NCBI RefSeq assembly: GCF_001612885.1
Contig: NZ_BDBH01000009.1
Coordinates: 186,001 to 250,000, forward strand
Origin: Nocardia harenae NBRC 108248
GTDB lineage: Bacteria > Actinomycetota > Actinomycetes > Mycobacteriales > Mycobacteriaceae
Reading direction: 5' to 3'
DNA length: 64,000 nucleotides
The notes below the pieces were generated by a model. That model searched no databases. It was not told where the DNA came from and worked only from the letters and a program-made list of their open reading frames with translations. Position numbers and translations under genes: made by a program. Position 1 is the stretch's first letter, and each line of letters opens with the position of its first letter. This document shows, piece by piece, positions 5,022 through 38,982 of this stretch.

Positions 5022-5108
5022 ATGGGGCCTCCTCGCGGGAGCGGTGCGGACCCGGTCGAGAAGTCGGCTCTTGTCAAGAAGCTGGCAGACGCCTACCATT
5101 CCGAATAG
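5022..5108 (+). CDS. Possible 28-residue small ORF
   Basis: An ATG preceded by GGAGG (9 nt spacing) opens a 28-residue frame ending at TAG. It lies in the 267-bp gap between the thiolase and the thiolase-ECH fusion. The peptide ends in '...VKKLADAYHSE', which resembles the first helix of SnoaL/NTF2-like proteins, so it could be a remnant of such a gene or a chance frame. There is no other support. Confidence 0.2.
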   Translation: MGPPRGSGADPVEKSALVKKLADAYHSE

Positions 5109-5259
5109 CGGACGCAAACCGTCGGTAATTACTTTTCCCCGGAACCTGCCAGGTGAAACCGCTTGTCGTGCAGTGGTATCCGGCTGCGACAACCTAGATT
5201 CACCCGCCGGGAACCGGCGTGGCAACGAGCGGGACTTCTCGGCGCGGTGGAGGACTCAG

Positions 5260-11562: not shown

Positions 11563-12198
11563 CCGCGATGGTCGAGTCCGTTCCGACCGAGATTATCCCA
11601 TCGCGGATCCGTGACCGGCCACGGTGACGGATCTGGTTCCACCAGTTCATCTCGATTCGGCCGGGTGTTCGAGGGGTGCCGGCGACCCTGGGGTGCGCTG
11701 GACGGCGGTCCGCGGTCGCGCGCGGACACGACCCGTCGGGCGGTGTCGGTTCCGCGCCTGCGAGCGGCAGGCAAGGTGAAGTGAGCCGCGGAACCGACCG
11801 GGTCGAGAGATGCTCCGTCTCGGGGGATCTATCAGTGAGAACAGCTGCGGTACAGGTGAATTAAGCCTTTCCAGTTCGGGGTGGGATCCGAGTCAGGGTT
11901 TCGCGATCCGACAGAGTGATCGGCCAGGACCCGGGCTTCCAGTTCAGCTGGTTTATTTGTATAATCTGGCTATTTAGCCTTCCGATCGAAGGGCCCGCGC
12001 ACTTCGGGTCCGTTCGTCGGCGGCGGATCGAACCTCTTCTCCGATTACCAGCATCATGTGCCGGAAATTGGGTTAGAGTGGTTCGGATCACACCGCGACA
12101 CCCCCGAATATGAGCGGCTTCTCCCCGCCGGACGGCCGCGACTGTCATCTCCGCACCAACTCGCGCAAAGCGACTGTACGACAGGGCAATCGACTATC
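11563..12198. other. Long divergent intergenic region with candidate promoter
   Basis: This 636-bp stretch separates the GntR gene from the aldehyde dehydrogenase. I see no supported gene. Around 11940-11990 it becomes AT-rich and contains a perfect TATAAT at 11960-11965 on the plus strand, with only a weak -35 match about 16 bp upstream. An in-frame extension of the aldehyde dehydrogenase to an ATG at 12058 crosses its right part; the extra 47 residues look non-homologous. Confidence 0.4.
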
Positions 12199-13731
12199 GT
12201 GACCAGCCAAATACATTCCGTCTCGGCTCGTCCGGACGAATCGGTGGACCTACTGGAGCCGACCGAGGAGCAGCTCCGCGCGTTCTTGGACCGGCAGCGC
12301 GCGGCGTTTCTGGACCGGGGCGCACCCTCGGTGGCCAGCAGGCGGGACCGTATCGATCGACTGATCCTGATGGTCACCGAGAACGCCGACGCCTTCGCGG
12401 CGGCGCTGGCGGCGGATTTCGGCCACCGCCCCGAAACGCTCAGCAAGTTCAGCGACATCCTCGGCGTGCTCGGTGACATCCAGCTCACGCGGGCTCGGCT
12501 ACGCGCGTGGATGCGTCCGAGCAGGCCGCTGCGGGGCTCGGGGCTGTTCGGCGTCGCGAGCCGGGTCGAGCGAGTCCCGCTCGGCGTGGTCGGCATCATC
12601 GGGCCCTGGAACTTCCCGCTCGGTCTGGTGATCGAACCCGCGGCGGCGGCCTTCGCGGGCGGCAACGCCGTCATGGTCAAGTTCTCCGAGGTCACCACCC
12701 ATACCGCGGAGCTGTTCGTCCGCAAGGTCGCCGAGTACTTCGACCCGTCCGAGTTCATCGCGGTGAGCGGTGGACCCACGGTCGGCTCGGCATTCAGCGC
12801 TCTCCCGTTCGACCATCTGTTCTTCACGGGTTCGCCGAAGGTGGGCGCGCTCGTGGCGGCGGCGGCCGGCCGCAATCTCGTCCCCGTCACCCTGGAGCTG
12901 GGCGGCAAGAACCCGGTGGTCGTCGACCCGGCCGCCGATATCGGCCGGGCGGCGCGCCGGCTGGCCGAAGCTCGCCTGATGAACGGCGGGCAGTTGTGCC
13001 TCTGTCCCGAACTGGTCTTCGTACCCGAGGAACAGAAGACGGCCTTCCTCGAGGGCGTCTTGCGGCGCGCCCGTGCCATCGCCGGTTCCGATGGCGGCCA
13101 TGTCGCGGTGGTCAACGACGCCAACTTCACGCGGGTGACCGGATTGCTGGAGGATGCGCGCGGCAAGGGCGCCACGGTGCACGAGGCGGTGCCCGGTGAG
13201 CGGCCCGACCCCGTCGCCCGGCGGATCCCCCCGGTGGTGGTCACCGACTTCGACGACACCATGACGATCGCCGACGAGGAGATCTTCGGCCCGATTCTCA
13301 TGGTGCGGTCGTATCGGACGATCGACGAGGTGATCGCGTACCTCGCGCCGCGGCCCGCGCCCCTGGCGGCCTATTGGTTCGGACCGGAGAACGAGGCGTT
13401 CCTGGCCTTCACCGGGCGCGTGCGCTTCGGTGGGATGACCGTCGGCGACGTGGCCCTGCACTGCGCGATTCCGGCGCTTCCGTTCGGCGGCGTCGGGCAC
13501 AGCGGTTCGGGCGCTTACCACGGCAGGCGGGGGTTCGAGACCTTCACCCACGCCAGGGCCATCACCACGAGCCGGCTTCCGATGTCGGTCGGTGCACTCG
13601 CCACCCCGCCGGTCGGCCGTCGCACGGCCGCGCTGGTCGATTCCATGATCGCGCGAACCGCGGCGGCCGCGCGGCGCAGGCTGGACCGCGCCTCGGATTC
13701 TTCGGCACCCAGGAATACAGGAGAGAAATGA
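12199..13731 (+). CDS. Aldehyde dehydrogenase, class 3 / coniferyl-aldehyde-dehydrogenase-like
   Basis: The protein is 510 residues from the GTG at 12199. It has the class 3 order of motifs: 'VGIIGPWNFPLGL', 'LFFTGSPKVG', 'LELGGKNPVVV' (catalytic Glu) and 'NGGQLC' (catalytic Cys), and ends 'FGGVGHSGSGAYHGRRGFETFTH'-like. These enzymes oxidise medium to long or terpenoid aldehydes to acids with NAD(P)+. About 45 extra C-terminal residues ('...RTAAAARRRLD') could be a membrane-proximal tail as in FALDH-type enzymes. The start is uncertain: an in-frame ATG at 12058 exists, but neither site has a strong Shine-Dalgarno sequence. Its stop overlaps the next ATG (ATGA), so it is coupled to the SDR, and together they could take an alcohol to an acid. 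Confidence 0.85.
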   Translation: MTSQIHSVSARPDESVDLLEPTEEQLRAFLDRQRAAFLDRGAPSVASRRDRIDRLILMVTENADAFAAALAADFGHRPETLSKFSDILGVLGDIQLTRARLRAWMRPSRPLRGSGLFGVASRVERVPLGVVGIIGPWNFPLGLVIEPAAAAFAGGNAVMVKFSEVTTHTAELFVRKVAEYFDPSEFIAVSGGPTVGSAFSALPFDHLFFTGSPKVGALVAAAAGRNLVPVTLELGGKNPVVVDPAADIGRAARRLAEARLMNGGQLCLCPELVFVPEEQKTAFLEGVLRRARAIAGSDGGHVAVVNDANFTRVTGLLEDARGKGATVHEAVPGERPDPVARRIPPVVVTDFDDTMTIADEEIFGPILMVRSYRTIDEVIAYLAPRPAPLAAYWFGPENEAFLAFTGRVRFGGMTVGDVALHCAIPALPFGGVGHSGSGAYHGRRGFETFTHARAITTSRLPMSVGALATPPVGRRTAALVDSMIARTAAAARRRLDRASDSSAPRNTGEK

Positions 13732-14519
13732 GCAGTCACAACGCGGCGAACGGTGCGGTGGCGCTGGTCACCGGCGGAGCCAGTGGGATCGGGATGGCCG
13801 GCGTGCGGCGACTGGCCGAACGGGGGTACCGGATCGCGGTCGTCGATCTGAACGAGACCGCGCTGGACGCCGTCGCCGCCGAATTCGGCGACGCCGTGAG
13901 CACTTTCGCCGCCGACGTATCCGATCACGACGCGGTGTTGGCGGTGGTGAGCAAAGTCGAGAGCGAGCTCGGTCCGATCCAGCACGTCTTCGCCTGTGCG
14001 GGTGTGGCTCGAGTGGGGTCCACATTGTCGGTGGACCGGGCGCACGTCGATCTGATGATGCGGGTGAACTACGGCGGCGTGGTGAATCTCGTCTACTCGG
14101 TCATTCCCCGCATGATCGAGCGAGGAGGCGGTGAGTTCGCGGTCGTCGCGTCGATGACGGGCATCATGGCCCCGCGCAAGATGGCCGCCTACGGGGCGAC
14201 GAAGGCCGCGGTCATCGGCCTGCTCGACGCGCTGAGTTACGAGCTGGAGGGCACCGGCGTGCAGTTGGCGTGCGTATGTCCGGAGGCGGTGCGGACCCCG
14301 ATGGCGAACGACTTCTTCGTGAACGCGGACAAGCGCCGACGCGCGCTGAAAACGGCGGTCACCCCGGAGCAGGTGGTCGCGGCGACCGAGCGCGGTCTGC
14401 GCCGCCGCAGATTCCTGATCCTGCCCGGCCCGGTCTCCAAGGTCGGGTGGCGACTCCAGCGATTCCTCCCCCGCGTGACCCACGCGATGCAGCGCAGCGG
14501 CGCTGCCGATCTGGTCTGA
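13728..14519 (+). CDS. Short-chain dehydrogenase/reductase (SDR)
   Basis: 263 residues with a classical SDR layout: the Rossmann 'TGGASGIG' near residue 17, a 'CAGVA' version of the NNAG motif, catalytic Ser in 'VVASMTG', and 'YGATKAA' (Tyr, Lys). After the core there is a C-terminal arm with 'RRRRFLILPGPVSKVGWRLQRFLPR', typical of SDRs annotated in mycobacterial lipid clusters. It probably interconverts an alcohol and a ketone or aldehyde with NAD(P)(H). ATG 13728 follows AGGAGAGA and overlaps the stop of the aldehyde dehydrogenase. Confidence 0.9.
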   Translation: MSSHNAANGAVALVTGGASGIGMAGVRRLAERGYRIAVVDLNETALDAVAAEFGDAVSTFAADVSDHDAVLAVVSKVESELGPIQHVFACAGVARVGSTLSVDRAHVDLMMRVNYGGVVNLVYSVIPRMIERGGGEFAVVASMTGIMAPRKMAAYGATKAAVIGLLDALSYELEGTGVQLACVCPEAVRTPMANDFFVNADKRRRALKTAVTPEQVVAATERGLRRRRFLILPGPVSKVGWRLQRFLPRVTHAMQRSGAADLV

Positions 14520-14533
14520 GGGGGACGGCCGCC

Positions 14534-15331
14534 ATGGTCTGCTGCCTGCTGGCCGCGCAATTGGGGGTGCTGCTGCGTGGATTCTTCGCGCCCGTGCGGG
14601 GGCAGGGGGAGCGGCGACCGCGCCCCCGCGCGTCGGTGGTCGCCCTGGCCGTGGGGGAGCTGGGAATCCTCGCCGTTCTGGTGCTCGCGATCGCCTCGGC
14701 ACGACCGGGGGCCTCGTCGTCGACGGCCGAGTCCGCTCACGTCCACGACGTGAGCCACGTCGGCATGAGCCATGGCGCGAATCACGTGGTGTGGATGGCC
14801 GCGCTGGCCCTCGCGACCACGGTCATCCCGCTCACCGTGCTGGCCGCGACGGAAACGGCTCTCCCGCGGCTGCGTGAGCTCGCGCTGCGGGTGCCCGCCT
14901 GGTTGGACGCGGTGATCTGGATCACGGTACTGGTGGTGTGGCATCTGCCGGTTGTGCACGCCACCGTGTCCGGCTCGGTGTGGCGAACGGCCGTGCTTGC
15001 CGTGCTGACGGCTGTCGTCTCGCTGCCGGTATGGGCTCGGGTCAGCGACCTGCTGCGCCGGGCGCCGCAGGTGGCGGCCACGACGTGGGTGCCGCTGCTC
15101 GCGGCCTTCGAGATCAGCATGGTGTTCGGCGCGGCGCTGGTGGCGAGTCCGGCCGGGTGGGTGCCGGGAGCCGGCGCGGTGCCGATCGCCGAACAACGCC
15201 TGTCCGGACTGCTGATGCTCGTCGTGGACATCGCGGCTCTGGTCCATCTGTTCCGGCGCGAGCGCGGCACGGCCGAAATCGACTCGCTCTTCACCGCTTT
15301 CGTACGTACTCCCCGGGAAGGAACCCGGTGA
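14534..15331 (+). CDS. Polytopic membrane protein, distantly CtaG (cytochrome c oxidase assembly)-like
   Basis: 265 residues with about six hydrophobic segments. The 'VVWHLPVVHATV' segment and the late 'PIAEQRLSGLLMLVVDIAAL' segment match the pattern of Caa3_CtaG proteins ('HLP...' and '..DQQLAGLLMW..'). A His-rich loop ('HVHDVSHVGMSHGANH') between the second and third segments could bind metal. CtaG-type proteins help place copper or haem in terminal oxidases, but here no oxidase genes are near, so function is open. The ATG at 14534 lies 14 nt after the SDR stop, behind GGGGGA. The first residues are poorly supported; an internal start is possible. Confidence 0.6.
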   Translation: MVCCLLAAQLGVLLRGFFAPVRGQGERRPRPRASVVALAVGELGILAVLVLAIASARPGASSSTAESAHVHDVSHVGMSHGANHVVWMAALALATTVIPLTVLAATETALPRLRELALRVPAWLDAVIWITVLVVWHLPVVHATVSGSVWRTAVLAVLTAVVSLPVWARVSDLLRRAPQVAATTWVPLLAAFEISMVFGAALVASPAGWVPGAGAVPIAEQRLSGLLMLVVDIAALVHLFRRERGTAEIDSLFTAFVRTPREGTR

Positions 15332-15492: not shown

Positions 15493-16146
15493 TCAGGGCT
15501 CGGCCGGATCCCGCGCGGCCACGGTGGCCGAGCCGGACCGGTGCGGCGCGAGCGCCCGCTCGATGATGGCGGGCAGGTGGAGCAGCACCGAGTCTCGGCG
15601 GCTCCTGTCCTCGGTGCCGATGTCCTGGTGCAGGAGGGCGAGCATCAGCGTCGGACCGAGCACGTCCTCGACGACCGCGCCGGGGTCGAGGTCGTCTCGT
15701 CGTTCGGTGCGCGCGGCGGCGGCGACGCGGTCGCGCAGCATCCGCTGGCCGGGTTCCAGCAGACGATTCCGATAGGCGGCGAACAGTCCGGGCACCGAGT
15801 CGGCGTCGAGATGGATCCGCAGGTAGGCGCGACCGGAGCCGCGGGTGAACACGTCGAACACAGCGGTGGCGAGTTCCAGCAGCCATTCCCGCAACTCCTG
15901 CCCCACGCGGGTTTCGATCAGCGGAAACCCGGAGGCGGTGAGCGCTGCCATCAGAAGTTCTTCGCGCGTGTCGAACCGCCGCCCCACGGCGTCGCGCGAT
16001 ACTCCGGCCGCCGTGGCGACCGCCTTGACGGTGAATCCGGACCAGCCGTGTCTGGCGTAGACCTCGCGAGCCGCGTCGAGGATGCGTCCGTCCAGGGTGG
16101 TATCGCGGGGTCGTCCCGCCGTCCTCACGCCATCGTCGTTGGACAC
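15493..16146 (-). CDS. TetR/AcrR-family transcriptional regulator
   Basis: 217 residues. The helix-turn-helix is near residues 35-55 ('FTVKAVATAAGVSRDAVGRRF'). The C-terminal domain is TetR_C-like with 'DLDPGAVVEDVLGPTLMLALL'. The GTG start at 16146 has GGGAGGG just upstream. It is divergent from the first LinD-like gene with 194 bp between starts, so control of that gene is the simplest guess. It converges on the CtaG-like gene, leaving 161 bp (15332-15492) with no gene seen. Confidence 0.9.
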   Translation of the reverse strand: MSNDDGVRTAGRPRDTTLDGRILDAAREVYARHGWSGFTVKAVATAAGVSRDAVGRRFDTREELLMAALTASGFPLIETRVGQELREWLLELATAVFDVFTRGSGRAYLRIHLDADSVPGLFAAYRNRLLEPGQRMLRDRVAAAARTERRDDLDPGAVVEDVLGPTLMLALLHQDIGTEDRSRRDSVLLHLPAIIERALAPHRSGSATVAARDPAEP

Positions 16147-16340: not shown

Positions 16341-18293
16341 ATGAGTACCGATCTCTTGCGAACCCCGGCCGAATCGGGCGCGGATTCGCACGCGTTGCCG
16401 CAGCGGCGGCGGTTGCACGGGCCGGTGAGTACGCGACGCCAGCGCCGAACGGTGCTGGCCTACACCCTGCTCGCGGTGGTCGGCTTCCTGCCGTCCCTCC
16501 TGGCGGCGGGGGCCGGATGGCAGGCGTTGGGCCTCGGGCTGGTGGTGCCCGGCGGCGGATTCCTGCTGCACGGCGCCGTGGGTGCGGCCGCGATGCTGCT
16601 CACCCTCGTTGCGCTGGCGGTGGCACTGGTGGTGTGGTTCGGTACCGGCAACGTGATCGTGCCGGTGCTCGTGTGGCTGGCGGCGGCCGGTTCGGCCACG
16701 TGGTGGTCAGCGGGAGATCCCGAACCCGGACCGGTGCCCGCGGCCGCGACGGCGGTGATCGTCGCGGCCGTCGCGCTGGCCACGGTTCTGGTCAAGCGCC
16801 GGGCAGTGGCACGAGCGCACCGGCTTCGCGCCGAACGGGAGGCATACCTGCCCGCCGAGATCGCCGCGTATCGGGCACGCCGAGCGCCGGATGCGACCGG
16901 TATCGGCGAACTGGACGACAAGCAACTCGCCCATCTCCGCTGGTTGCTGGAATTGGGCCTGCAGCCGGTCGGAGAGTTCGAGGGTTTCGATATCGTCGAG
17001 CAGTTCCAGCCCTCCGCGCTGCGCTATCAGATCAACCACGTGCAGTATGCGCTCGCCCAGGCGCAGCGGCACTACCTCCCGAATTTCGACGGCTATCTCT
17101 CGCGCGCGCAGGAGAACCTGATCGAGAAACTGGCCGAGCCGAAGGTCTGGGGCTACTGGCGACTGGAGCGGCTGTGGGGACGGCTGAGCCTGCACTACGA
17201 CCCGGCGGCGCGGGAGAACATCATGTTCACGGGGTGGTCGGGGATCTGCCTGAACACCTACAGCGCCACCACCGGCAGCGCGCGCTTCGCCGGCTCCGAT
17301 GCCCTCGAATTCACTCTGGGTAATCCGCGCAAGACCTATCGCCACGGTGCGGAGTCGTTCAATCGATCGCTGGTGGAGAACTTCGGCCGGGCCGAGCACA
17401 CGCTCTTTCCCTGCGAGCCGAACTGGACCTACTCCACGTGCAATCTCTACGGAATCAACAGCATCGCCTCGTATGACGCGGCATTCGGTACCAACCATCT
17501 GGCCGAGGTGCGCGAACCGTTCGTGCGCGGGCTGCGTACCGAGTTCATGGATCCGGCGGGCAACCTGGTGCCGTTCCGCTCCGATCACCTGGGTTTCGGC
17601 GTGCCCGCGAGTACCGGAGTCGTCTTCGCCCAGGCTGCGGGCTGGGCACGACCGACCCTGCCGCGTCTGTCGGAGATGCTGTGGGCCATCGCGTGCCGGG
17701 AGGTCTTCCAGCTCGACGAGGGAGGGCTCGAGCGCAGCCTGGAGACGCTGATGAAGACCGATCCCGGCAACTATCGAAACACCGGGTTGTTCGCGCGCGC
17801 CGTCATCGCGTTCTCGGCGGTCGAAGTCGGCGACTCGGCGGTGGCGAAGGCTGTCTTCGACTGCATGGAACGGTGCAACGATCCCGTCGAGGAGCGCGGC
17901 ACCCGCCGGTTCGGCAACGGCTCGACCTTCTCCAACGCGATCGCGGCACACGCCGCCCTCAGCCGGCCCGGCGACTGGTCCGCACTGATCACCCAGCCCG
18001 CTCCGGCCTCCGCCCGTACCGGGCCGCTGCTCGGCAGCGCCTCCTACGACGAAGTGATGGTCGCGCGCGCCACCAGCGACGGTGATGACCTCGACCTGGT
18101 GCTGTGCCCGGCGCCGACGCGCACCGGCCCGGTGGACGCGTCGCTGCGACTTCGCCGCCTGCGGCCGGGGGGCACCTATCGCGCCGTGTCGCCGAGCGGA
18201 ACGACGGAATTCATCGCCGATCGCCTCGGGGAGGCGGGGATCACGGTCTCGGTCGCCGGACGGTGCGGTGTTCGCGTCGAACCGATCGGATAG
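16341..18293 (+). CDS. Membrane-anchored linalool dehydratase/isomerase-like protein (copy 1)
   Basis: 650 residues. Residues 38-151 hold about four to five hydrophobic segments. From about 190 onward the protein matches the helical-barrel linalool dehydratase/isomerase (LinD) family. The family pair of cysteines with nine-residue spacing is present in 'CEPNWTYSTC' (C358 and C367), matching LinD C171/C180. An 'ENIMFTG' segment matches LinD 'ENIMYKG', and 'PGNYRNTG' occurs further on. In LinD the residue after 'YKG' is the catalytic His129; here it is Trp. LinD is a soluble periplasmic enzyme that isomerises linalool and geraniol and dehydrates linalool to myrcene, so the membrane domain is a clear departure. 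The ATG at 16341 has GGAGA about 6 nt upstream. Substrate is unknown; an isoprenoid alcohol is inferred. Confidence 0.8.
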   Translation: MSTDLLRTPAESGADSHALPQRRRLHGPVSTRRQRRTVLAYTLLAVVGFLPSLLAAGAGWQALGLGLVVPGGGFLLHGAVGAAAMLLTLVALAVALVVWFGTGNVIVPVLVWLAAAGSATWWSAGDPEPGPVPAAATAVIVAAVALATVLVKRRAVARAHRLRAEREAYLPAEIAAYRARRAPDATGIGELDDKQLAHLRWLLELGLQPVGEFEGFDIVEQFQPSALRYQINHVQYALAQAQRHYLPNFDGYLSRAQENLIEKLAEPKVWGYWRLERLWGRLSLHYDPAARENIMFTGWSGICLNTYSATTGSARFAGSDALEFTLGNPRKTYRHGAESFNRSLVENFGRAEHTLFPCEPNWTYSTCNLYGINSIASYDAAFGTNHLAEVREPFVRGLRTEFMDPAGNLVPFRSDHLGFGVPASTGVVFAQAAGWARPTLPRLSEMLWAIACREVFQLDEGGLERSLETLMKTDPGNYRNTGLFARAVIAFSAVEVGDSAVAKAVFDCMERCNDPVEERGTRRFGNGSTFSNAIAAHAALSRPGDWSALITQPAPASARTGPLLGSASYDEVMVARATSDGDDLDLVLCPAPTRTGPVDASLRLRRLRPGGTYRAVSPSGTTEFIADRLGEAGITVSVAGRCGVRVEPIG

Positions 18294-18386
18294 CCGCAGT
18301 GCGATGGTGGCAACGAAATGTGTTGCCGCAACGCAATTTTCGCCAGTTCGCTGCTGCGAGCGCGAATGCGGGCTATGGTCTCCATG

Positions 18387-18408
18387 GAATATAACGATCG
18401 ATACATTC
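18387..18408. promoter_or_regulatory. 22-bp imperfect palindrome before the CrtC/AttH-like gene
   Basis: The arms GAATATAACGA and TCGATACATTC are inverted copies matching at 9 of 11 positions around a central CGATCG. The site ends directly before the AGGAGG ribosome binding site of the gene at 18419. A repressor bound here would block transcription or initiation; the adjoining TetR gene at 19417 is the likeliest partner. Confidence 0.5.
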
Positions 18409-18418
18409 AGGAGGCGTG

Positions 18419-19420
18419 ATGTCGATCCCCACCTACGGCGACTTCGATTTCCAGACCGTCGTGGACACCTACGACCCGAAGCTGGCCGATCTGCAACCCC
18501 ACCATCACCGGCACGGGCTGACGTTGCAGGTGCAGTACTTCTACGGGACGCTGCGCGACTCCGACGGCGTGACGTGGGCGTTGGAGCGCAAGTTCATCGG
18601 CCCCATGACCGGCGGCGTGTGGCTGATGAACGACGCGAGCGGCGACCTGAACCTGCACGTGGGCGCGCTGACGTCCGCGCGGGGCGAATCCATCCGCACG
18701 ATCGAGCCGTCCAAGCGCGTCTGGCGTAATCACCTCATGCACACGATGTCGGAGAAGTTCGGCGTCGCGAGCGAGCCGATGGAGCTGGCCATCGACGACG
18801 AGGGGATCCGGTGGTCGGAAGGCGAGCTGTTCGATCTCGCGGGCCCGCTGCAGGGGCCGGGATTCCAGTTCTACGCCCCCGCCCGCGACGAACCGCTGTT
18901 CTACAGCACTCAGGTCTACTGGGTCACCGGCACGATCGGGGGCAAGCCCGCCGAGGGGTTCGTCGGGCTCGACAACGGCTATTGGACCCACGGCGTCGAG
19001 TGGAAGGAATACCGCTACTTCCGTGATCTCGAGGTCTCGTGGGAGGTGTTCGGCAACAAGTTCACCGACGGCTCGATCGAGTACGGTGTGATCGTCAAGG
19101 GCCGCCGCGGCTGGTCGGGTGCGGCAACATTCGAGTCGGGTAAGCTGATCGCCAAAACCGATCAGGTCGGCGCGGTCTACGATCTCGACGACGAGGGCTT
19201 CATCAACAGCATAAACTTCGACATCGGCGGTCAGGGCTACACGTTCACCGGTGGGGAGACGGGGAGAATGCACCATTTCGGCGAGGCCCGCTGGGGTAAC
19301 TACACCTCGCAGGGAGGTGTCACCCGGCGTGTCGGTGACGCCCGGGAACTGGACTTCGGATACAGCTGGATCGAGTTCTTCCCCACCCGGATCACCGCGG
19401 ACGGACTCACCTCTGGATGA
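18419..19420 (+). CDS. CrtC/AttH-like (lipocalin-type) protein of unknown function
   Basis: 333 residues, rich in beta-strand and aromatic residues ('QVQYFYGTL', 'FQFYAPARDEPLFYSTQVYWVTG', 'GYSWIEFFPTR'). The overall look is that of the CrtC/AttH fold, two lipocalin-like barrels, which includes carotenoid 1,2-hydratase. No signal peptide or membrane segment is seen. A role in hydrating or binding an isoprenoid is suggested by the family resemblance and by the flanking LinD-like genes, but I do not see decisive catalytic residues. ATG 18419 is chosen over the GTG at 18416 because AGGAGG ends 4 nt before it. Its stop overlaps the TetR start (ATGA). Confidence 0.7.
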   Translation: MSIPTYGDFDFQTVVDTYDPKLADLQPHHHRHGLTLQVQYFYGTLRDSDGVTWALERKFIGPMTGGVWLMNDASGDLNLHVGALTSARGESIRTIEPSKRVWRNHLMHTMSEKFGVASEPMELAIDDEGIRWSEGELFDLAGPLQGPGFQFYAPARDEPLFYSTQVYWVTGTIGGKPAEGFVGLDNGYWTHGVEWKEYRYFRDLEVSWEVFGNKFTDGSIEYGVIVKGRRGWSGAATFESGKLIAKTDQVGAVYDLDDEGFINSINFDIGGQGYTFTGGETGRMHHFGEARWGNYTSQGGVTRRVGDARELDFGYSWIEFFPTRITADGLTSG

Positions 19421-20079
19421 CCGCTGGGCCAACGGGAGCCAGGCGTCGCTCCGGTCGTCCGCCGGCCGGAGCGGATTCCGTGCGGGATGCCCTGCTCCGT
19501 GCCGGGGCGACGCATTTCAGTAAATCCGGCTACGCCGGTGCGAGCATCCGCGACATTCTGGCCGACGCGGGCGCGACCGCGCCCGCGCTGTATCACCACT
19601 TCGGTAACAAGCCCGGACTGTACATCGCCACGGCGACCGAGGCGCAGAACCACGTATTCGACACGTTCCGGTCGGCGGTGACCGGCAGGCGTTCCCGGGC
19701 GGATCGGGTCTCGGCACTGCTCGACGCCGCGGTGGCGCTGCGACGAGAGCACCCGTACGCCGCCGAATACCTGGTCGTCGTGGATCGCGATATCGCCCGC
19801 CATCCCGAGCTCGGCGAGCTGGCTGCCTTCGGCGCGCGCTTCGACGAGTTCTGGAGGGGGCTGGTCGGTGCGCAATCCGATCGAGGCACCGCGATCGGAT
19901 TGCGCGCCCTCGTGCAAGGCGTCTTGGTGATGGGTGGCCCGACCATGCCCATCACGGATGTGGAGGCGGGCGCGCAGGCCCTGCAGCGGCTGTTGCGAGC
20001 GGGGATCGACTCGCCGCCTCGAGCGGGCGAGTCCTCGACGGAAGGTGCGGCTTCCGCGGTGGCGAAGCCGCCGCCGTGA
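19417..20079 (+). CDS. TetR/AcrR-family transcriptional regulator
   Basis: 220 residues with 'ASIRDILADAGATAPALYHHF' as the helix-turn-helix (about residues 44-64). It overlaps the CrtC/AttH-like gene by 4 nt and so is probably co-expressed and autoregulated through the palindrome at 18387-18408. The C-terminal domain has the usual TetR_C helices ('LRALVQGVLVMGG'). It faces another TetR gene tail to tail. Confidence 0.9.
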   Translation: MTAGPTGARRRSGRPPAGADSVRDALLRAGATHFSKSGYAGASIRDILADAGATAPALYHHFGNKPGLYIATATEAQNHVFDTFRSAVTGRRSRADRVSALLDAAVALRREHPYAAEYLVVVDRDIARHPELGELAAFGARFDEFWRGLVGAQSDRGTAIGLRALVQGVLVMGGPTMPITDVEAGAQALQRLLRAGIDSPPRAGESSTEGAASAVAKPPP

Positions 20080-20110
20080 CCAGGCCCCTGGCACCCTGCG
20101 TCGAACTCGG

Positions 20111-20141
20111 GCCGCTCGGCGAGATCCGTGCGCCGAGCGGC
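20111..20141. terminator. Bidirectional hairpin terminator between convergent tetR genes
   Basis: A perfect 11-bp stem (GCCGCTCGGCG / CGCCGAGCGGC) with a 9-nt loop lies in the 75-bp gap between the two converging TetR genes. There is no U-run, as is usual in actinobacteria. Confidence 0.7.
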
Positions 20142-20154
20142 TGTCGAGGCGTCG

Positions 20155-20784
20155 CTACCGGCGCGCTCGTCCGAGGAGGAAATCGACGAGATCGGCGGCG
20201 TAGTTCGTGCCCGGGGTACTGAGCGTCGTCCCGTCGCGCCTGGCCAGTGACTCGTAGAGCGCCGCGCCGGCCAGCAAGCCGGTGAGCATCGTCGCCGACA
20301 CGTCCGCGTCGAGTTCACCGCGGTCGAGCCCGCGCTGGATGATCGCCTCCGCGGCGTGCAGCGTGTGCTCCGCGGCGACGTCTCCGACGGCGGCGTGCAA
20401 CGGTGACTGCCGCTGCACCTCGATCATCATCCGAATCACCACCGGCCCGTCGGGGGAGGCGAAGTAGTCCATCAATCCCGCTGTGAAAGCGATCAACTCG
20501 GTACGCAGGTCTCCGGTTTCGCGGATCTGCAACGCGAAGTCGGTCCGGCGCAGTGCGTCGATCAGGAGGTCGGGCGCCGAGGCCCACCGTCGGTAGAGAG
20601 CGGGCTTGCCCACATCGGCCCGCTTGCTGACGGATTCGAACGTGACCGCCGCCTGGCCGCCTTCGGCATAGAGCATTCGCGCTGCCTGCAGGCATCGGCG
20701 ACTGATTTCGGGGTCGCGCGGTCTGCCGCCGCGTTCGACTGCCGAATCCGACCGGAGCGTCAAGCCGCGCACCTTCTCGCGCAC
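20155..20784 (-). CDS. TetR/AcrR-family transcriptional regulator
   Basis: About 209 residues from the GTG at 20784. The helix-turn-helix sequence is 'VTFESVSKRADVGKPALYRRW', followed by a TetR_C_16/AcrR-like domain. The frame stays open far upstream, over the second LinD-like gene, so the start is uncertain: GTG 20784, GTG 20772 and TTG 20763 are all in frame, and the TTG has AAGG about 9 nt upstream. It is divergent from the second LinD-like gene. The ACGTAC inverted repeat between them is the probable operator. Confidence 0.85.
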   Translation of the reverse strand: MREKVRGLTLRSDSAVERGGRPRDPEISRRCLQAARMLYAEGGQAAVTFESVSKRADVGKPALYRRWASAPDLLIDALRRTDFALQIRETGDLRTELIAFTAGLMDYFASPDGPVVIRMMIEVQRQSPLHAAVGDVAAEHTLHAAEAIIQRGLDRGELDADVSATMLTGLLAGAALYESLARRDGTTLSTPGTNYAADLVDFLLGRARR

Positions 20785-20824
20785 GTGGTCATTGACGAAG
20801 TCTACCGCCCGGATTAGCCTACTA

Positions 20825-20843
20825 ACGTACTGTAATCGTACGT
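20825..20843. promoter_or_regulatory. Inverted repeat ACGTAC-N7-GTACGT, candidate TetR operator
   Basis: Perfect 6-bp arms separated by 7 bp lie in the AT-rich divergent region between the TetR gene (start near 20784) and the second LinD-like gene (start 20929). The position, about 85 bp before the LinD-like ATG and 40 bp before the regulator start, suits an operator that controls both directions. Confidence 0.55.
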
Positions 20844-20928
20844 AATTATGCGGAAGCAATTCTTCCCCCACACCTCCGCTGCGGCAGCACTCTGCGCCCG
20901 CGAGGGGAACCTCGAGATTCGAGATGTC

Positions 20929-22818
20929 ATGACAACGACCAGAGAACCCGAGATATTGCACACCCGTGCGGGAGCGAGTGGTTCGGTGCTGCGCAGGCAC
21001 CGGTTCCGAGCGCTCGGCACATGGGCGGTCACGGCCTTCGTGGGGATTCTGCCCATTCTCGCCGACGCGCCCGACGGACTCGCGGCGGCCGGACTCGGAC
21101 TGTGGTTTCCGGGGGCCGGTTTCCTCTACGGTGGCCTGTGGTGGGCGACCGTGCTGACGCTGCTCGCGTTCGTCGTCGCCATGGCACTGTGGGTTCTCAT
21201 GGGCGGGTTCGTCTTTCCCGTCGGGGTGTGGGCGGGGACGGTACTGCTGGCCGGGGTGACCGCCGGGCAGGAGTGGGCGCCCGCCCGCGTGGTCGTGCCC
21301 GCGACCGCCGCGGTCGTGATCGCGGCGGTCGGGGCGGCGATGTTGTCGCGCAGGCGGACGACGCGGCGACTCGGCGAGCGGGCGGCCGACGAGCTGGCGA
21401 CGGTGGCGTTCCGGGAGCCGGAATTGCGCAACCCCGTACCCGGCGAGCTCGACGAGAAGGACCTCGCCGAACTCCGGTATCTGCTCGACCGCGCGCTGCA
21501 GCCGGTAGACGAGTTCGCAGGCTTCAACACCATCGACCAGTTCCGGGAGAGCGCTTGGCGCTACCAGCTCGTCACCATGAACTACGCACTGGCCGCCCTT
21601 CAGGTGAATCATCTCCACGCCTTCACCGGCTATGTGCAACAAGCGCAACGCAACGCGATCGTGAAGATGACGGACCGCCGCGTCTGGCACTACTGGCGCA
21701 TCGAGAATCTGGTCGGCAACTTCAAGTTCGGCGCCGATCCGATCCGGTACGAGAACATCATGTATTCGGGATGGTGGGCGCTGGCGCTCGGCGCCTACGA
21801 GCGAGCCACCGGCGACCTGCAGTTCTCCGAGCCGGGGGCACTCACACTCGTGGACAAACCCGGGCGCGAGTACGTCTACGACTATCCGGCGATCGTCGAG
21901 GCGATCGTCGGCCAGTTCGACGACCGTGCGCTGACATTCTTTCCGTGCGAACCGAACTGGGTGTTCACCGTCTGCAATCTGTACGGGATGGGCGGCGCGT
22001 TGCTGTTCGATCGCGTACACGGCACGAGGCACGGTTCGGATCGGCTGGACCGGTTCAACGAGATCCTCGAATCGGAATTCACCCGGTGTGACGGTGGCGC
22101 TGTCGTCATCGCGTCACGCCGTACCGGGCTGACCCTGTCGACCTCGGAACCGTTCTCCGCGGCCTCCAATACGTGGCTGACCAACATCGTCTCGCCGCGG
22201 CAGGCGCAGGTCGCCTGGGAACTGGCACGGCGCTTCAACATCCAGCGCACCCACGGTGATCTGCATGCCATCGTCCCGAAGGGGGCGGGGTTGGTCGACC
22301 CCGGCAACTATCGGTTGACCGGAGCCTGGTACTGGGCGTCGTCGATGGTCAGCGCTCGGGAAATGGGCGACCACGAACTGTACGAGGTCGCCGCGCAGAA
22401 GTTCGACGCGTTGAAGCCGATGAATCCCGATGCCGAGCATCCGTCCGAATATCACCGGTCGCTGTTCTGTCGAGCGATGGCGTGTGTGGGGCGGTTCGGG
22501 GCGCAGGACATGTGGTACCGGTTCGGCCACGGGGATATCACCGAACCCGCGACGGCGGGCGCGCATCTGAGCGAAATTTCGTACCGCGAGGCCCACGTCG
22601 CGGCCGCCCACCGCGACGGTGAGCGGTTGCGCCTGGTGCTGCGACCGGCGGCCGGGCCGGTCGGCGCCGCACTGCGGGTGGGCGGCCTGCGGCCCGGACG
22701 ACGCTACCGGGCAGCGGGGACGGTGGAGCCCGAGGTCACGGCCGACAACAGGGGTTTCGCCACCGCGACGGCGCGGGTCGACGGGCGCACCGAAGTAGTC
22801 TTCGGTCCGGCAGAGTAG
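20929..22818 (+). CDS. Membrane-anchored linalool dehydratase/isomerase-like protein (copy 2)
   Basis: 629 residues, collinear with copy 1. About four to five hydrophobic segments (residues roughly 25-130) precede a LinD-like catalytic domain. The paired cysteines are in 'CEPNWVFTVC' (C340, C349). 'ENIMYSG' is followed by Trp where LinD has His129, and 'DRVHGTRHGS' aligns with LinD 'DRLHGTDYR'. The two copies are clearly diverged, so they may differ in substrate or form a hetero-oligomer. An upstream in-frame ATG at 20848 would start right after the operator; 20929 is preferred because the protein then begins like copy 1. The 369-bp stretch after the gene (22819-23187) holds no convincing gene. 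Confidence 0.8.
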   Translation: MTTTREPEILHTRAGASGSVLRRHRFRALGTWAVTAFVGILPILADAPDGLAAAGLGLWFPGAGFLYGGLWWATVLTLLAFVVAMALWVLMGGFVFPVGVWAGTVLLAGVTAGQEWAPARVVVPATAAVVIAAVGAAMLSRRRTTRRLGERAADELATVAFREPELRNPVPGELDEKDLAELRYLLDRALQPVDEFAGFNTIDQFRESAWRYQLVTMNYALAALQVNHLHAFTGYVQQAQRNAIVKMTDRRVWHYWRIENLVGNFKFGADPIRYENIMYSGWWALALGAYERATGDLQFSEPGALTLVDKPGREYVYDYPAIVEAIVGQFDDRALTFFPCEPNWVFTVCNLYGMGGALLFDRVHGTRHGSDRLDRFNEILESEFTRCDGGAVVIASRRTGLTLSTSEPFSAASNTWLTNIVSPRQAQVAWELARRFNIQRTHGDLHAIVPKGAGLVDPGNYRLTGAWYWASSMVSAREMGDHELYEVAAQKFDALKPMNPDAEHPSEYHRSLFCRAMACVGRFGAQDMWYRFGHGDITEPATAGAHLSEISYREAHVAAAHRDGERLRLVLRPAAGPVGAALRVGGLRPGRRYRAAGTVEPEVTADNRGFATATARVDGRTEVVFGPAE

Positions 22819-23187: not shown

Positions 23188-24237
23188 GTGGCGGACGTAA
23201 AGGTTCAGTCGAGCGAGGCGCTCGCACCCCCGCCGCCTCGGCCCGTCCGTCCGGTGGTGGTGTGGTCGGTTGCCGGCGCGGGTGCGCTGGTGTTGCAGTT
23301 CTACGTCTTCGCCTCGTGGCTGAGCACCGACGCGGCGCCGGTCATTGCCACCGGTGTTCCCCGCTCGACCTGGGTGTTCGTCATCGTGTTCCAGGTCGCG
23401 ATGACTTCGGCGGCGGTGTTCGCGCTCTGTTACGTCGGCCGGGGAGTCATCCGGGAGCGGCGGGTCACCATCGAGGCGGCCCTGCTGATCGGCTACGCGT
23501 CGTGTTTCTGGCAGGACCCGATCACCCCGAACTATTTGCGCGTCACCTTCTACTACAGCTCGGCCTTCGTGAACCAGGGCTCGTGGGGGCACCACATCCC
23601 GGGCTGGATCAGTCCCAACAGCTCCGTGTGGGTCGAGCCCTTCTTTCTCACCGGTTCGTCCTACCTGGCGATGATCCTGACCGCTATCCAGGGGCGCAAC
23701 GCCATGCGGTGGATCAAGCGGCGCAGGCCACAGACCAACGTCGCCGGGCTGCTGTTCACCGGCTGGCTGGTAGTCGCGTCGACCGACTTCCTGCTGGAGA
23801 ATCTGTTCGTTCGCACGGGCGTCTACGCGTTTCCCGGAACCATCCATGGCTTGTCGATATCCGGCGGGACCATTCATCAGGTCCCGGTATACGAGTCCAT
23901 GACGTGGGGACTGGTCTGGGCGACGGGCGCGGCGATCCTGTACTTCGTCGACGACCGTGGGCAGTCATTCGTCGAGAAGGGAATCGACAGTTTCCCGCTC
24001 GGGCTGCGACACCGCGGGCTGTTCAAGATTCTGTCGTGCGTCGGCGTCCTCAACCTCGCCTACATTTTCTGCTTCGCGATCCCGTACAACCTGATCTCGC
24101 TGCACATCGACCCGTTCCCGGAAGGCTATCCCAGCCACCTGAACAACGGGATATGCGGTGTGGGCACGCCCTATGCCTGTCCCGACCCGGGTCTTCCGAT
24201 GAATCTGCCGAACGCCCCGGTGCCGCCCCCGCCCTGA
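23188..24237 (+). CDS. Spirocyclase AveC-like polytopic membrane protein
   Basis: 349 residues with about seven hydrophobic segments and conserved polar stretches between them ('WQDPITPNY', 'GSWGHHIPGW', 'STDFLLENLFVRTGVY'). The layout matches the AveC family, named after the dual-function spirocyclase/dehydratase of avermectin biosynthesis. Most family members in Nocardia and mycobacteria lie in lipid or steroid clusters and are uncharacterised. A dehydration or cyclisation role on a lipophilic substrate in the membrane fits its LinD-like neighbours but is inferred. GTG 23188 follows GAGGAG by about 7 nt. The C-terminus is a proline-rich tail. Confidence 0.8.
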   Translation: MADVKVQSSEALAPPPPRPVRPVVVWSVAGAGALVLQFYVFASWLSTDAAPVIATGVPRSTWVFVIVFQVAMTSAAVFALCYVGRGVIRERRVTIEAALLIGYASCFWQDPITPNYLRVTFYYSSAFVNQGSWGHHIPGWISPNSSVWVEPFFLTGSSYLAMILTAIQGRNAMRWIKRRRPQTNVAGLLFTGWLVVASTDFLLENLFVRTGVYAFPGTIHGLSISGGTIHQVPVYESMTWGLVWATGAAILYFVDDRGQSFVEKGIDSFPLGLRHRGLFKILSCVGVLNLAYIFCFAIPYNLISLHIDPFPEGYPSHLNNGICGVGTPYACPDPGLPMNLPNAPVPPPP

Positions 24238-24250
24238 CCGGAAGCTGATA

Positions 24251-25048
24251 GTGGTTACTTTTTCGGTAGCGCCCGGACTGGCGCGCACCGTTCCGCTCGT
24301 CGAGGTACTGAAGCTGGATCGGATCGACCGCGACCTGTTCCGCTCGGTGCACCTCTTCGAGGTCGATCGGCCCCTCTACGGCGGCCAGGTGATGGCGCAG
24401 GCCCTGCTCGCGTGCGGCGCGACCGTCGAACCGGACCGGATACCGCATTCGCTGCACGGGTATTTCCTCCGTCGCGGGGATGGCGCTCGGCCGGTGGTCT
24501 TCCGAACGGAAGTCGACCGGGACAGCCGTTCGTATTCGGCGCGGCGCGTGGTGGCTCTCCAGGATGGTGAAGTCATCTTCAGCATGGCGGCGTCGTTCCG
24601 GACGATCGTGGCGGGGCAGGAGGGCGCCGGATCGGAGGTGGTCGTGACCGCCGCCGTGGAGCAGTGTCCGGTTTTCGTTCCCTATTCGGAACTGGCGCTC
24701 GAGATCCGTGCCCACGACTGGACCGGCCGGCCGGGGAAGTCTCATCCGGCGAAGTTCTGGGCCCGTCCCCACGGTCCGCTGCCCGAGAACGATCCATTGG
24801 TCCACGCGGCCGCCATCGCGTACGTGTCGGATTTCTCCGCTGGGCTCCCGTACACCGTGGGAACCGACGTTCTCGGACCGAGCCTCGACCACGCGCTGTG
24901 GTTCCACCGGCCGCCGCGGTGGGACGGTTGGCTCTACCTCGACTACGACAGAGGCCTGTCGGCGGCCAAACGCGGCTGGTACACCGGCTCGGTTATCGCC
25001 GACGGTGAAGTCGTCGCCAGCCTGGCGCAGGAGATGGCCTACCGGTGA
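24251..25048 (+). CDS. Acyl-CoA thioesterase (TesB-like, double hotdog)
   Basis: 265 residues. Both hotdog halves are visible: the first around 'FEVDRPLYGGQVMAQAL', the second around 'YVSDFSAGLPYTVG' and 'SLDHALWFHRPPRWDGWLY'. That is the TesB/acyl-CoA thioesterase II pattern with the Asp in 'YVSD'. It hydrolyses acyl-CoA to free acid and CoA and would serve to release CoA from dead-end or product esters of the pathway. The GTG at 24251 begins 13 nt after the AveC-like stop, and the two are probably one transcript. Confidence 0.88.
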   Translation: MVTFSVAPGLARTVPLVEVLKLDRIDRDLFRSVHLFEVDRPLYGGQVMAQALLACGATVEPDRIPHSLHGYFLRRGDGARPVVFRTEVDRDSRSYSARRVVALQDGEVIFSMAASFRTIVAGQEGAGSEVVVTAAVEQCPVFVPYSELALEIRAHDWTGRPGKSHPAKFWARPHGPLPENDPLVHAAAIAYVSDFSAGLPYTVGTDVLGPSLDHALWFHRPPRWDGWLYLDYDRGLSAAKRGWYTGSVIADGEVVASLAQEMAYR

Positions 25049-25128: not shown

Positions 25129-27399
25129 ATGGTGGGATCCGAGGAGACTCGCGTGGATGACTGGCGGGTGCGATTGACGGCCCTACTCGAGAACTACGCG
25201 ACGCGGCCGCGGCCGGGATCGTCGCGTGAACGCGCGGCTGCCGCCCGCGCGTGGCAGGGGGAACTGGTCGATGCGGGCCTGGCCGCACCCGGCTGGCCGA
25301 AGGATGTCGGCGGGCTGGAGCTCGACCTGGAGGACCAGCTCGACTACTACCGGATGACCAGCGCGGCCGGTGTGCCCAAACATCCCAATCCGATGGCCTT
25401 CATCGTCGCGCCCACCCTGATCGTCTACGGTACCGACGCTCAGAAGAAGCGGTTCCTGGAACCGCTGCTGCGCGCCGAGGAGATGTGGTGTCAGGGGTTC
25501 TCCGAACCAGGTGCGGGCAGTGATCTGGCCTCCCTGTCCACCCGGGCGGTACGGGACGGCGACAGCTACCGGGTCACCGGTCAGAAGATCTGGACCACCC
25601 AGGCGACCGGGGCGGACTGGATGTTCGCGCTGGTGCGTACGGGTCCGGCCGGGCGTGGTACCGATGGCATCAGCTACCTGCTCATTCCGATGAACTCTCC
25701 GGGCATCGATGTCCGGCCGCTGCGCGACGCCTCGGGCGCCTACCATTTCGCCGAAGTCTTCTTCGATGATGTCGTGGTCCCCGCCGAGAACCTGGTCGGT
25801 GCGGAGGGGCGGGGGTGGTCGGTGATGCGCACATCGCTCGGCCATGAGCGCGCGACGGCATTCCTCGCCGACGAGTTCCGCTACCGCGGCTTGGTGGACA
25901 AGGTGTTCGCGCTCGCGGTCAGCCGGGGCTACGCGAACGACGCGGTGATCCGCCAGGAACTGGCTTTCGTCGAGACCGCTGTTCGCGCGATCGCGGCCAA
26001 CAGTGCTCGTGCCTTGAACGCCGTTCTGCGACAGGAGGATCCGGGCGGGGTGGCATCGGTGAACCGATTGGTCAAGTCGGAGTTCGAACAGCGACTGCAT
26101 CGGCTCGCGCTGCGATTGACCGGGTCGGGCGCCACGCTGGGCGGCCGGTCCGCGGGCGCGGTCGACGGCGGCCGCTGGAGTTACGGTTACCTGATGTCGC
26201 GGGCGTCGACCATCGGCGCCGGGACCGCCGAGATTCAGCGCAATGCCATTGCCGAGCAAGTGCTCGGTCTCCCGTCGCACCGGGGCGACGGCACCCGGCC
26301 CGCCGCCGTCGCACCCGGTCGCCCGCTGACTCCGCCGGACCAGGACGAGGCGGCGCTGCGCCGGGCACTCGGTGAGGTGCTTGCCGCCGCCACCGGTACC
26401 GGGCAGGTGGTGCGGCCCTCCGAGCCCGCCGATTACGACAGGGCGCTCTGGCAGCAGCTGGTCGGATTCGGCCTGCCCGGACTCGCGCTCGCGGAGGAGT
26501 CGGGTGGCGGCGGTGCGAGTATGCGGATGCTCGCGGTGGCGGTGGAGGAGGTCGGCTACGCGCTGGCGTCGGTGCCGCTGGTGCCGACACTCGGCGCGCT
26601 CGAGCTGCTGCGACTGGCCGGGACCACCGAGGTGGTGCACGCGATAGCCGACGGCGCGACGGCGGCCTTCGTCGTCCCGGTCGAGGACGAGGGTTGGGGC
26701 GTCGACGGTCCGCTACCGGCCCTGGAGGGCACCCGGCTGTCGGGCTCGGTGCAGCGGGTAGCTGGTGCGCCGGTGGCCGACGTACTGGTCGTGCTGGCCA
26801 GAGACGCCGCTACGGCGGAGCTGGTCCTCGCCACGGTCGAGCCGCGCGAGGTCGAGATCGAGCCGCAGGAGCCGATGGATGTGACGGCGACCGCCGGCGT
26901 GGTGGTGCTGGACGGCGTGGCGCCGACTGTCGTCGCCCGGGGGGACGAGGTGCTCCGAATCCTCGACGCCGCGCGGCCTGCGGTGCAATTGATGCTCGCG
27001 GCGGATTCGGTCGGGGTGGCGAATCGGGCCTTGGCGATGGCCGTCGACTGGGCCGGCCAGCGCGCGCAGTTCGGTCGCCTCATCGGCTCGTATCAGGCGA
27101 TTTCGCACCGCTGCGCCGACATGCTGGTGCGCGCGGAAGGTGCGCGCGCGCAGGTATTATCCGCCGCGGAACTCGCCCCGAACGACATCGAGGCCGCCGA
27201 TATCGCCGCCGCCGACGCGCTCGACGCCGCCGTCTGGGTCGCCGAGAATTGTATCCAGATCCATGGTGGTATCGGGTTCACCTGGGAGCATCCCGCGCAC
27301 CTGCTGTTGCGGCGGGCCATCGCGAACCAGGCGGCACTCGCCCGGCCGGAGCAACTGCGCGATCGCGCCGCCGGTGTGGTGCTGGCTCGGCTGTCCTGA
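25129..27399 (+). CDS. Two-domain acyl-CoA dehydrogenase (FadE34/FadE6-like fusion)
   Basis: About 756 residues with two acyl-CoA dehydrogenase units in one chain. The first (about 1-385) has 'QGFSEPGAGSDLASLSTRAV', a full FAD-binding 'KIWTTQA' region and an 'AEIQRNAIAEQVLGLP' end. The second (about 400-756) is shorter in its middle domain and ends with 'IHGGIGFTWEHPAHLLLRRA'. Mycobacterial FadE34-type enzymes have this layout, a fused version of the alpha2beta2 heteromeric dehydrogenases used for branched or steroid side-chain CoA esters. That makes a bulky isoprenoid acyl-CoA a reasonable substrate. ATG 25129 is chosen for the GAGG 4 nt upstream; a GTG at 25111 would add six residues. Confidence 0.86.
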   Translation: MVGSEETRVDDWRVRLTALLENYATRPRPGSSRERAAAARAWQGELVDAGLAAPGWPKDVGGLELDLEDQLDYYRMTSAAGVPKHPNPMAFIVAPTLIVYGTDAQKKRFLEPLLRAEEMWCQGFSEPGAGSDLASLSTRAVRDGDSYRVTGQKIWTTQATGADWMFALVRTGPAGRGTDGISYLLIPMNSPGIDVRPLRDASGAYHFAEVFFDDVVVPAENLVGAEGRGWSVMRTSLGHERATAFLADEFRYRGLVDKVFALAVSRGYANDAVIRQELAFVETAVRAIAANSARALNAVLRQEDPGGVASVNRLVKSEFEQRLHRLALRLTGSGATLGGRSAGAVDGGRWSYGYLMSRASTIGAGTAEIQRNAIAEQVLGLPSHRGDGTRPAAVAPGRPLTPPDQDEAALRRALGEVLAAATGTGQVVRPSEPADYDRALWQQLVGFGLPGLALAEESGGGGASMRMLAVAVEEVGYALASVPLVPTLGALELLRLAGTTEVVHAIADGATAAFVVPVEDEGWGVDGPLPALEGTRLSGSVQRVAGAPVADVLVVLARDAATAELVLATVEPREVEIEPQEPMDVTATAGVVVLDGVAPTVVARGDEVLRILDAARPAVQLMLAADSVGVANRALAMAVDWAGQRAQFGRLIGSYQAISHRCADMLVRAEGARAQVLSAAELAPNDIEAADIAAADALDAAVWVAENCIQIHGGIGFTWEHPAHLLLRRAIANQAALARPEQLRDRAAGVVLARLS

Positions 27400-37374: not shown

Positions 37375-37383
37375 CGCCAGACC

Positions 37384-38982
<1,599 letters not shown>

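Follow-up and report, generated by a model that had tools for sequence, protein, structure and literature searches.

Two neighbouring genes of Nocardia harenae NBRC 108248 encode proteins, here called LdiA and LdiB, that belong to the linalool dehydratase/isomerase (Ldi) family and carry a membrane anchor. They lie in a stretch of 64,000 nucleotides (contig NZ_BDBH01000009.1, positions 186,001 to 250,000 of the forward strand), referred to as the window, whose positions are counted from its first letter. The anchored Ldi architecture has been known since 2016 from the enzyme Lis of Thauera linaloolentis, and LdiA and LdiB are further members of it. We consider it reasonably probable that they are Lis-type enzymes that convert a tertiary allylic isoprenoid alcohol into the primary alcohol, which would then be oxidized to the acid and degraded as its CoA ester. 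The coordinates of both proteins are given below, with reference to LinD, the linalool dehydratase/isomerase of Castellaniella defragrans (PDB 5hlr, 5g1u).

16341..18293 (+): LdiA, 650 aa, with a membrane part at about residues 36-153, the PF18566 Ldi domain at 228-529 and a C-terminal extension at about 546-650
17214..17240 (+): ENIMFTGWS block of LdiA, whose W occupies the position of LinD His128
17412..17441 (+): cysteine codons of LdiA, CEPNWTYSTC, with Cys358 and Cys367 as the equivalents of LinD Cys170 and Cys179
20929..22818 (+): LdiB, 629 aa, with a membrane part at about residues 27-142, followed by the PF18566 Ldi domain
21946..21975 (+): cysteine codons of LdiB, CEPNWVFTVC, with Cys340 and Cys349

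The initial annotation had described at this place two long frames of the Ldi family, with a double-cysteine motif of nine-residue spacing and an ENIM(F/Y)xG block, and all of this was borne out exactly in both proteins, the LdiB counterpart of ENIMFTG being ENIMYSG. The two frames are uninterrupted and show a strong coding bias, and the cysteines and the NIM and CEP blocks are all kept. The ATG of LdiA has GGAGAA before it; starting LdiB from the GTG at 20926 would lengthen it to 630 aa. The hidden Markov model search against the Pfam family, which the annotation had proposed, matched PF18566 far beyond chance with E = 4.3e-79 for LdiA and 1.3e-69 for LdiB, covering profile positions 1-317 and 1-299 of 318, nearly the full profile, and the whole-protein scores (266.7 and 235.5 bits) both pass the curated cut-off of 26.1. 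When compared with the PDB by phmmer (E up to 1), LdiA and LdiB matched only linalool dehydratase/isomerase chains, with best E values of 3.5e-5 and 1.2e-8, respectively. In addition, a family profile of 64 rows matched LinD at 3.5e-31, and the profile alignment with LinD had 99.8% probability across 301 columns.

The annotation had also counted about five hydrophobic segments in each protein. Taken singly, LdiA and LdiB do show four to five, but when hydropathy was averaged across the aligned relatives possessing the N-terminal part (46 of 64), three strong peak regions emerged (43-50, 85-117 and 138-147 in LdiA numbering), the middle of which could span two helices. Thus, the simplest description of the N-terminal part is one of four helices, the first two separated by a weaker hydrophobic stretch at about 56-80. 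Basic residues mark the cytosolic side of membrane proteins according to the positive-inside rule. The flanks of the membrane part contain 0.22 and 0.26 Lys/Arg per residue, versus 0.01-0.08 in the loops, and because both flanks are rich in these residues and the loops poor, the Ldi domain is probably on the cytosolic side of the membrane. The anchor is not general in the family: among 92 proteins classified by hydropathy, comprising those of the relatives' loci described below, further genomes and six plasmid-borne copies, a hydrophobic N-terminal region is clearly present in 44, absent from 37 (of which 24 are, as called, no longer than 505 aa) and ambiguous in 11.

The Ldi domain recognized by profile, the cysteines nine residues apart and the NIM-xxG block are shared with LinD, which differs in being periplasmic and unanchored (371 aa in the PDB chain) and in having His128, Tyr44 and a Cys48-Cys101 disulfide; beyond LinD, LdiA and LdiB have the added membrane part and about 100 C-terminal residues. 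LinD folds as an (alpha,alpha)6 barrel and assembles into a pentamer, whose active sites lie between subunits. Asp38, Tyr44, His128, Cys170 and Cys179 are named as the LinD active site (PMC12455561), and Cys48-Cys101 as its disulfide (PMC6600392). According to the account in the latter source, two structural studies of LinD proposed acid/base catalysis by cysteines through a carbocation, part of one of these proposals being questioned by later computations (PMC6600392). We have aligned LinD with 86 family members using MAFFT; these rows come from 101 matches, after removing five repeating or clipping loci, one second frame of locus L048 and pieces shorter than 400 aa. The two catalytic cysteines are conserved in 85 and 84 of the 86 relatives, and since both are in place in LdiA and LdiB, these proteins are expected to carry out allylic hydroxyl transfer or dehydration. 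The column of Asp38 holds Asp in 79 of the 86 relatives and in LdiB, in an N-terminal region where the alignment is insecure. The columns of Cys48 and Cys101 hold Glu and Glu in LdiA and Ala and Asp in LdiB, so that the disulfide cysteines are absent, which fits a reducing compartment. The His128 column contains Phe (35), Tyr (26), Trp (21), His (3) and one gap. A separate profile alignment (hhalign) concurs for His128 and the cysteines, but disagrees for the N-terminal Asp/Tyr loop.

The closest published parallel is Lis of T. linaloolentis 47Lol (ENO87364), a protein of 644 aa described with four predicted helices within its first 139 residues (PMC4791888). Its description places the activity in the inner membrane, gives the protein no signal peptide, and reports geraniol/linalool isomerization and activation by a reductant, as well as a lack of activity of Lis produced in E. 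coli (PMC4791888). The route outlined for Thauera leads from linalool to geraniol, geranial and geranic acid by means of Lis and two dehydrogenases (PMC4847356). As compared with the published description of Lis, LdiA and LdiB are similar in length (644 vs 650/629 aa), in having helices in the first 140-155 residues or so, in their C-terminal Ldi domain and in the alcohol and aldehyde dehydrogenases of the pathway. Lis differs in being betaproteobacterial, in belonging to an anaerobic linalool pathway with Atu/Liu genes, and in having been described as a single copy. The annotation had proposed a membrane-tethered branch of the family; the anchor is real, but such a branch was already known, because the layout of Lis was published in 2016 and the enzyme has been characterized.

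On these grounds, the following mechanism can be proposed. The catalytic domain would be tethered by the helices to the cytosolic membrane face, the place into which a lipophilic allylic alcohol is expected to partition. The two cysteines would act as acid and base, so that the tertiary hydroxyl is protonated and departs as water; re-addition of water to the opposite terminus of the allyl system would yield the primary allylic alcohol, and deprotonation would instead yield a diene. In the LdiA cluster, a short-chain dehydrogenase (SDR) and an aldehyde dehydrogenase (ALDH) would oxidize the primary alcohol to the acid, and a CoA-transferase, a fused acyl-CoA dehydrogenase and a fused thiolase/hydratase would degrade the CoA ester. 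LdiB may perform the same reaction on a second alcohol or isomer, a candidate role that is less clear than that of LdiA. A lipophilic isoprenoid alcohol, as the annotation had supposed, remains the likeliest kind of substrate for both.

PF18566 is an uncommon family, present in 4 of 60 related genomes and in 7 of 396 genomes of the phylum (both counts including N. harenae) and in none of 14 control genomes. A scan of species genomes yielded at least 79 Ldi loci, mainly from actinobacteria, but also from Pseudomonas, alphaproteobacteria and bins of other phyla; this number is a lower bound because the scan used a single peptide pattern. Apart from the anchored proteins, 31 unanchored ones form a clade of their own (L057, L059, L065, L078, L092 and others), many being about 470 aa long and most coming from mycobacteria, Nocardia and Gordonia; their neighbours are different, e.g., a DUF5134 protein. 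Distant Ldi genes were also observed at L094 and L095, in bins labelled Acidobacteria and Elusimicrobia, with neighbours that we take to resemble the activator and subunits of a 2-hydroxyacyl-CoA dehydratase or benzoyl-CoA reductase.

The annotation regarded the pair as duplicated in one cluster. Two copies are indeed present, but a recent tandem duplication was ruled out, because LdiA and LdiB share only 226 of 622 aligned residues (36%), whereas the identity between LdiA and a protein of Mycolicibacter sinensis (locus L018) reaches 62% over the domain and 55% overall; LdiA also pairs with this protein in a quick maximum-likelihood tree (Shimodaira-Hasegawa-like approximate likelihood ratio test, SH-aLRT, 100), Pseudomonas proteins being nearby. 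LdiB has no firm position in the tree and sits on a long branch (end branch of 1.74-1.77 changes per column). By their sequences, LdiA and LdiB are thus old relatives that were brought or kept together. Two Ldi genes less than 5 kb apart are also found in M. sinensis and in one other actinobacterium (G084). In M. sinensis, the LdiA orthologue directly follows an ALDH gene, a second Ldi gene lies about 3.2 kb upstream, and CaiB-, TetR-, CtaG-like and SDR genes are nearby; this second copy does not firmly group with LdiB. The LdiA counterpart of Mycobacterium sp. GA-2829 (L050, 10001-11964) is broken into three frames, by either pseudogenization or sequencing errors.

The genes around LdiA and LdiB are the following:

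5044..7656 (+): thiolase-like and enoyl-CoA hydratase fusion, start not fixed
7697..10102 (+): double class III CoA-transferase (CaiB type, two fused copies)
12199..13731 (+): aldehyde dehydrogenase, PF00171; the frame opens at 12058, start not fixed
13728..14519 (+): short-chain dehydrogenase, PF00106, whose ATG overlaps the ALDH stop by 4 bp
14534..15331 (+): weakly CtaG-like membrane protein, about 14 bp after the SDR, start not fixed
15493..16146 (-): TetR-type regulator, divergent from LdiA
18416..19420 (+): 334-aa protein without a significant Pfam match
19417..20079 (+): TetR-type regulator
20155..20700 (-): TetR-type regulator, divergent from LdiB, start not fixed
23188..24237 (+): AveC-like protein, PF17198, downstream of LdiB
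24251..25048 (+): TesB-type acyl-CoA thioesterase, below the NCBIfam tesB cut-off
25135..27399 (+): double acyl-CoA dehydrogenase (two fused copies), start not fixed

These genes belong to an island of lower G+C content at third codon positions (GC3), which extends over window positions 1-30066 and at least about 16 kb upstream (L112). GC3 was measured for genes between about 170 kb and 216 kb of the contig, where it is 0.80-0.89, and for two other regions and the window's right half, where it is 0.89-0.98; since codon usage sets the island apart, it suggests acquisition from elsewhere. Three fused enzymes (5044-7656, 7697-10102 and 25135-27399) are found in this one island. The 334-aa protein has two paralogues about 27-28 kb upstream in the same contig (L112, 5718-6713 and 6746-7753), so that the island holds three copies of this family of about 330 aa, which was found in 5 of 99 related genomes, N. 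harenae among them; a search for a solved relative in the PDB gave one match only, with E = 0.6. Naming the regulators with NCBIfam gave no hit above cut-off for two of them: the best match of that at 20155..20700 was KstR-like (24.7 bits vs a cut-off of 280) and that of 19417..20079 was ScbR-like (52.2 vs 150). The only other PF17198 match in the genome (C4:146007) has a different neighbourhood (L114). A conserved partnership of Ldi with AveC or with the 334-aa protein was discarded, as tblastn at E 1e-8 found neither of them in the stretches around Ldi at the 79 loci.

ALDH and CtaG-like genes adjoin Ldi in five places, i.e., the window, a third Ldi gene of N. harenae, L018, L050 and a Rhodococcus opacus plasmid, and each of the five has a gene for an SDR or an alcohol dehydrogenase no more than about 5 kb away. 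At L018 (M. sinensis) and L050 (Mycobacterium sp.) the order is SDR, CtaG-like, ALDH and Ldi, and the window ALDH is 58% identical to the one located directly upstream of Ldi in both. The third Ldi gene, elsewhere in the N. harenae genome (L113, 2800-11776) and in the usual codon usage, is accompanied by genes for a TetR regulator, an ALDH, a CtaG-like protein (PF09678), a zinc alcohol dehydrogenase and an ATP-grasp-type acyl-CoA ligase; this locus perhaps represents a cleaner pathway than that of the window. A cytochrome P450 (P450) gene is also present at the R. opacus plasmid locus, and in an R. erythropolis plasmid an ALDH, an alcohol dehydrogenase and an AMP-binding protein precede Ldi. 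The plasmid-borne Ldi loci of Aureimonas, Variovorax and Agrobacterium vitis have other neighbours, and that of Novosphingobium is without annotation.

Several observations weigh against the proposal of a Lis-type isomerase feeding an oxidative pathway. In a control with BLAST clusters that compared genes less than 4 kb from Ldi with those at 4-10 kb over 78 loci, neither ALDH (p = 0.23) nor zinc alcohol dehydrogenase (p = 0.48) genes were significantly concentrated near Ldi; the enrichment was likewise not significant for P450 (p = 0.70), acyl-CoA dehydrogenase (p = 0.75) and an SDR cluster that included some flavin-containing monooxygenase-like frames (p = 0.09), and AMP-ligases were if anything farther away (p = 0.06). 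A concentration of redox genes near Ldi as a family-wide rule is therefore discarded, and the redox-module argument is limited to two clades, those to which LdiA and the third Ldi belong. Within the window, the CtaG-like label is weak, as it depends on blastp E values of 5e-5 and 4e-4 to the L050 and L018 counterparts, which phmmer did not match, and the protein has no Pfam match of its own. No clear geranyl-CoA carboxylase was found in the island; a carboxylase pair at 35380-38982 lies outside it and reaches no NCBIfam cut-off. No redox gene directly adjoins LdiB, whose best relative is only 37% identical over the domain (39% in a local match). The active site departs from LinD as well: His128 is Trp in both LdiA and LdiB (for LdiA, hhalign concurs on the position); the Tyr44 column, where the N-terminal alignment is insecure, holds Val in both and Tyr in only 1 of the 86 relatives; and the residue that probably corresponds to Asp38 is a Glu in LdiA and a Ser in the Mycolicibacter orthologue, both exceptions in the family. 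The alignment of the Asp/Tyr loop is itself unsure, because global hhalign puts a gap elsewhere. The likeness to LinD noted in the annotation thus holds for the cysteine pair and probably for an acidic residue at Asp38, but not for His128, the disulfide cysteines or, less surely aligned, Tyr44, and an aromatic residue in place of His128 may shift the balance of the reaction.

Other clades of the family have quite different neighbours. A divergent Lcp/MpaB-like gene is located on the same strand within 1 kb of Ldi at 18 of the 79 loci (e.g., L034, 11743-12642; L035, 11875-12759; L038, 11893-12801; L047, 11737-12810), and three of these pairs overlap by 4 bp as called. Seventeen of the 18 loci fall in one anchored clade of 24 rows (support 99), the remaining one, L040, being its neighbour. 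In the near/far control, 13 such genes were near Ldi and none far (p = 2e-5). Pfam PF09995 recognizes three of the six proteins tried (L047, L035 and L040, not L034, L038 or L054), and all 18 have in common an R-x3-T followed by a His 28 residues later, which resembles R164/T168/H198, the haem-associated residues given for Lcp (PMC6311187). PF09995 is matched six times in the N. harenae genome, never close to an Ldi gene. Another clade with support, consisting of six members (L083, L087, L077, L042, L052 and the Aureimonas L118), has a DgkA-type gene after Ldi in five members and a UppS-type gene before it in three, according to Pfam; L077 has neither adjoining. The uppS-type, anchored Ldi and dgkA-type genes stand in a row at L118 (4751-7900, plasmid pAU20b of Aureimonas sp. 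AU20), L042 (4802-8208) and L052 (9087-12421), whereas L083 (484-3028) and L087 (9935-12064) have Ldi-dgkA only. The L042 bin is labelled Anaerolineae, yet its Ldi is close to that of L052 and has the same neighbours. This row in alphaproteobacteria suggests that Ldi acts on polyprenols; none of the literature matches listed (titles, abstract starts and term counts) linked Ldi to AveC, Lcp or polyprenols. It is tempting to speculate, though we would not think it likely, that anchored Ldi proteins are a broad class of membrane enzymes moving, removing or adding water within the bilayer, their substrates being prenyl lipids and long prenyl alcohols. The alphaproteobacterial operon would then make, isomerize and phosphorylate a polyprenol, the actinobacterial Lcp/MpaB-like haem oxygenase would cleave an isoprenoid chain, and LdiA and LdiB would be a catabolic offshoot on terpenoid alcohols of C15 or longer. 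For this reading, the weakness of the Lcp/MpaB label is offset by the better evidence on UppS and DgkA.

The same contexts bear on the possibility, which we regard as rather doubtful, that the change from His128 to an aromatic residue (Phe, Tyr or Trp in 82 of the 86 relatives) altered the reaction: LdiA and LdiB would then chiefly take water from, or add it to, a tertiary alcohol or alkene, or their substrate would be a long prenyl lipid or the side chain of a terpenoid instead of a free monoterpenol. Neither the Lcp/MpaB-like genes nor those of the uppS/dgkA type are known monoterpene machinery, but they accompany clades other than that of LdiA, whose context resembles alcohol catabolism, and Lis does isomerize linalool, whatever its residue at the His128 position.

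It is less probable that the compound degraded by the cluster is not an isoprenoid but another branched or cyclic molecule, in a steroid- or xenobiotic-like catabolism, with Ldi recruited for another tertiary alcohol. The island is rich in generic acyl-CoA genes and contains the AveC-like protein and the 334-aa family, and a LinD-like isomerization has been suggested for 25-hydroxy-steroids (PMC3691188); on the other hand, no steroid-ring gene was recognized among the window genes scanned, and both characterized members of the family act on acyclic terpenols. We find it improbable that one or both copies are non-catalytic in vivo, as a diverged or decaying protein or as a binding or sensing partner, an explanation that would be most plausible for LdiB. 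The long end branch of LdiB, which has no relative above 37% over the domain, the altered Asp equivalent in the LdiA clade and the fragmented Ldi frame of Mycobacterium sp. GA-2829 could be read in this way, but the intact, strongly coding frames of the window and their preserved cysteines and NIM and CEP blocks argue for working enzymes.

If LdiA and LdiB are the Lis-type isomerases that we propose, the window holds an actinobacterial equivalent of the Thauera pathway that lends itself to testing. The relatives of Ldi, anchored and unanchored, are spread over several phyla and at least three distinct gene contexts. Should these contexts mean what they suggest, cofactor-free, cysteine-based allylic isomerization and dehydration would be far wider than the two monoterpene enzymes and may reach polyprenols, and the gene groups of the relatives hint at an unexplored chemistry of isoprenoid lipids.

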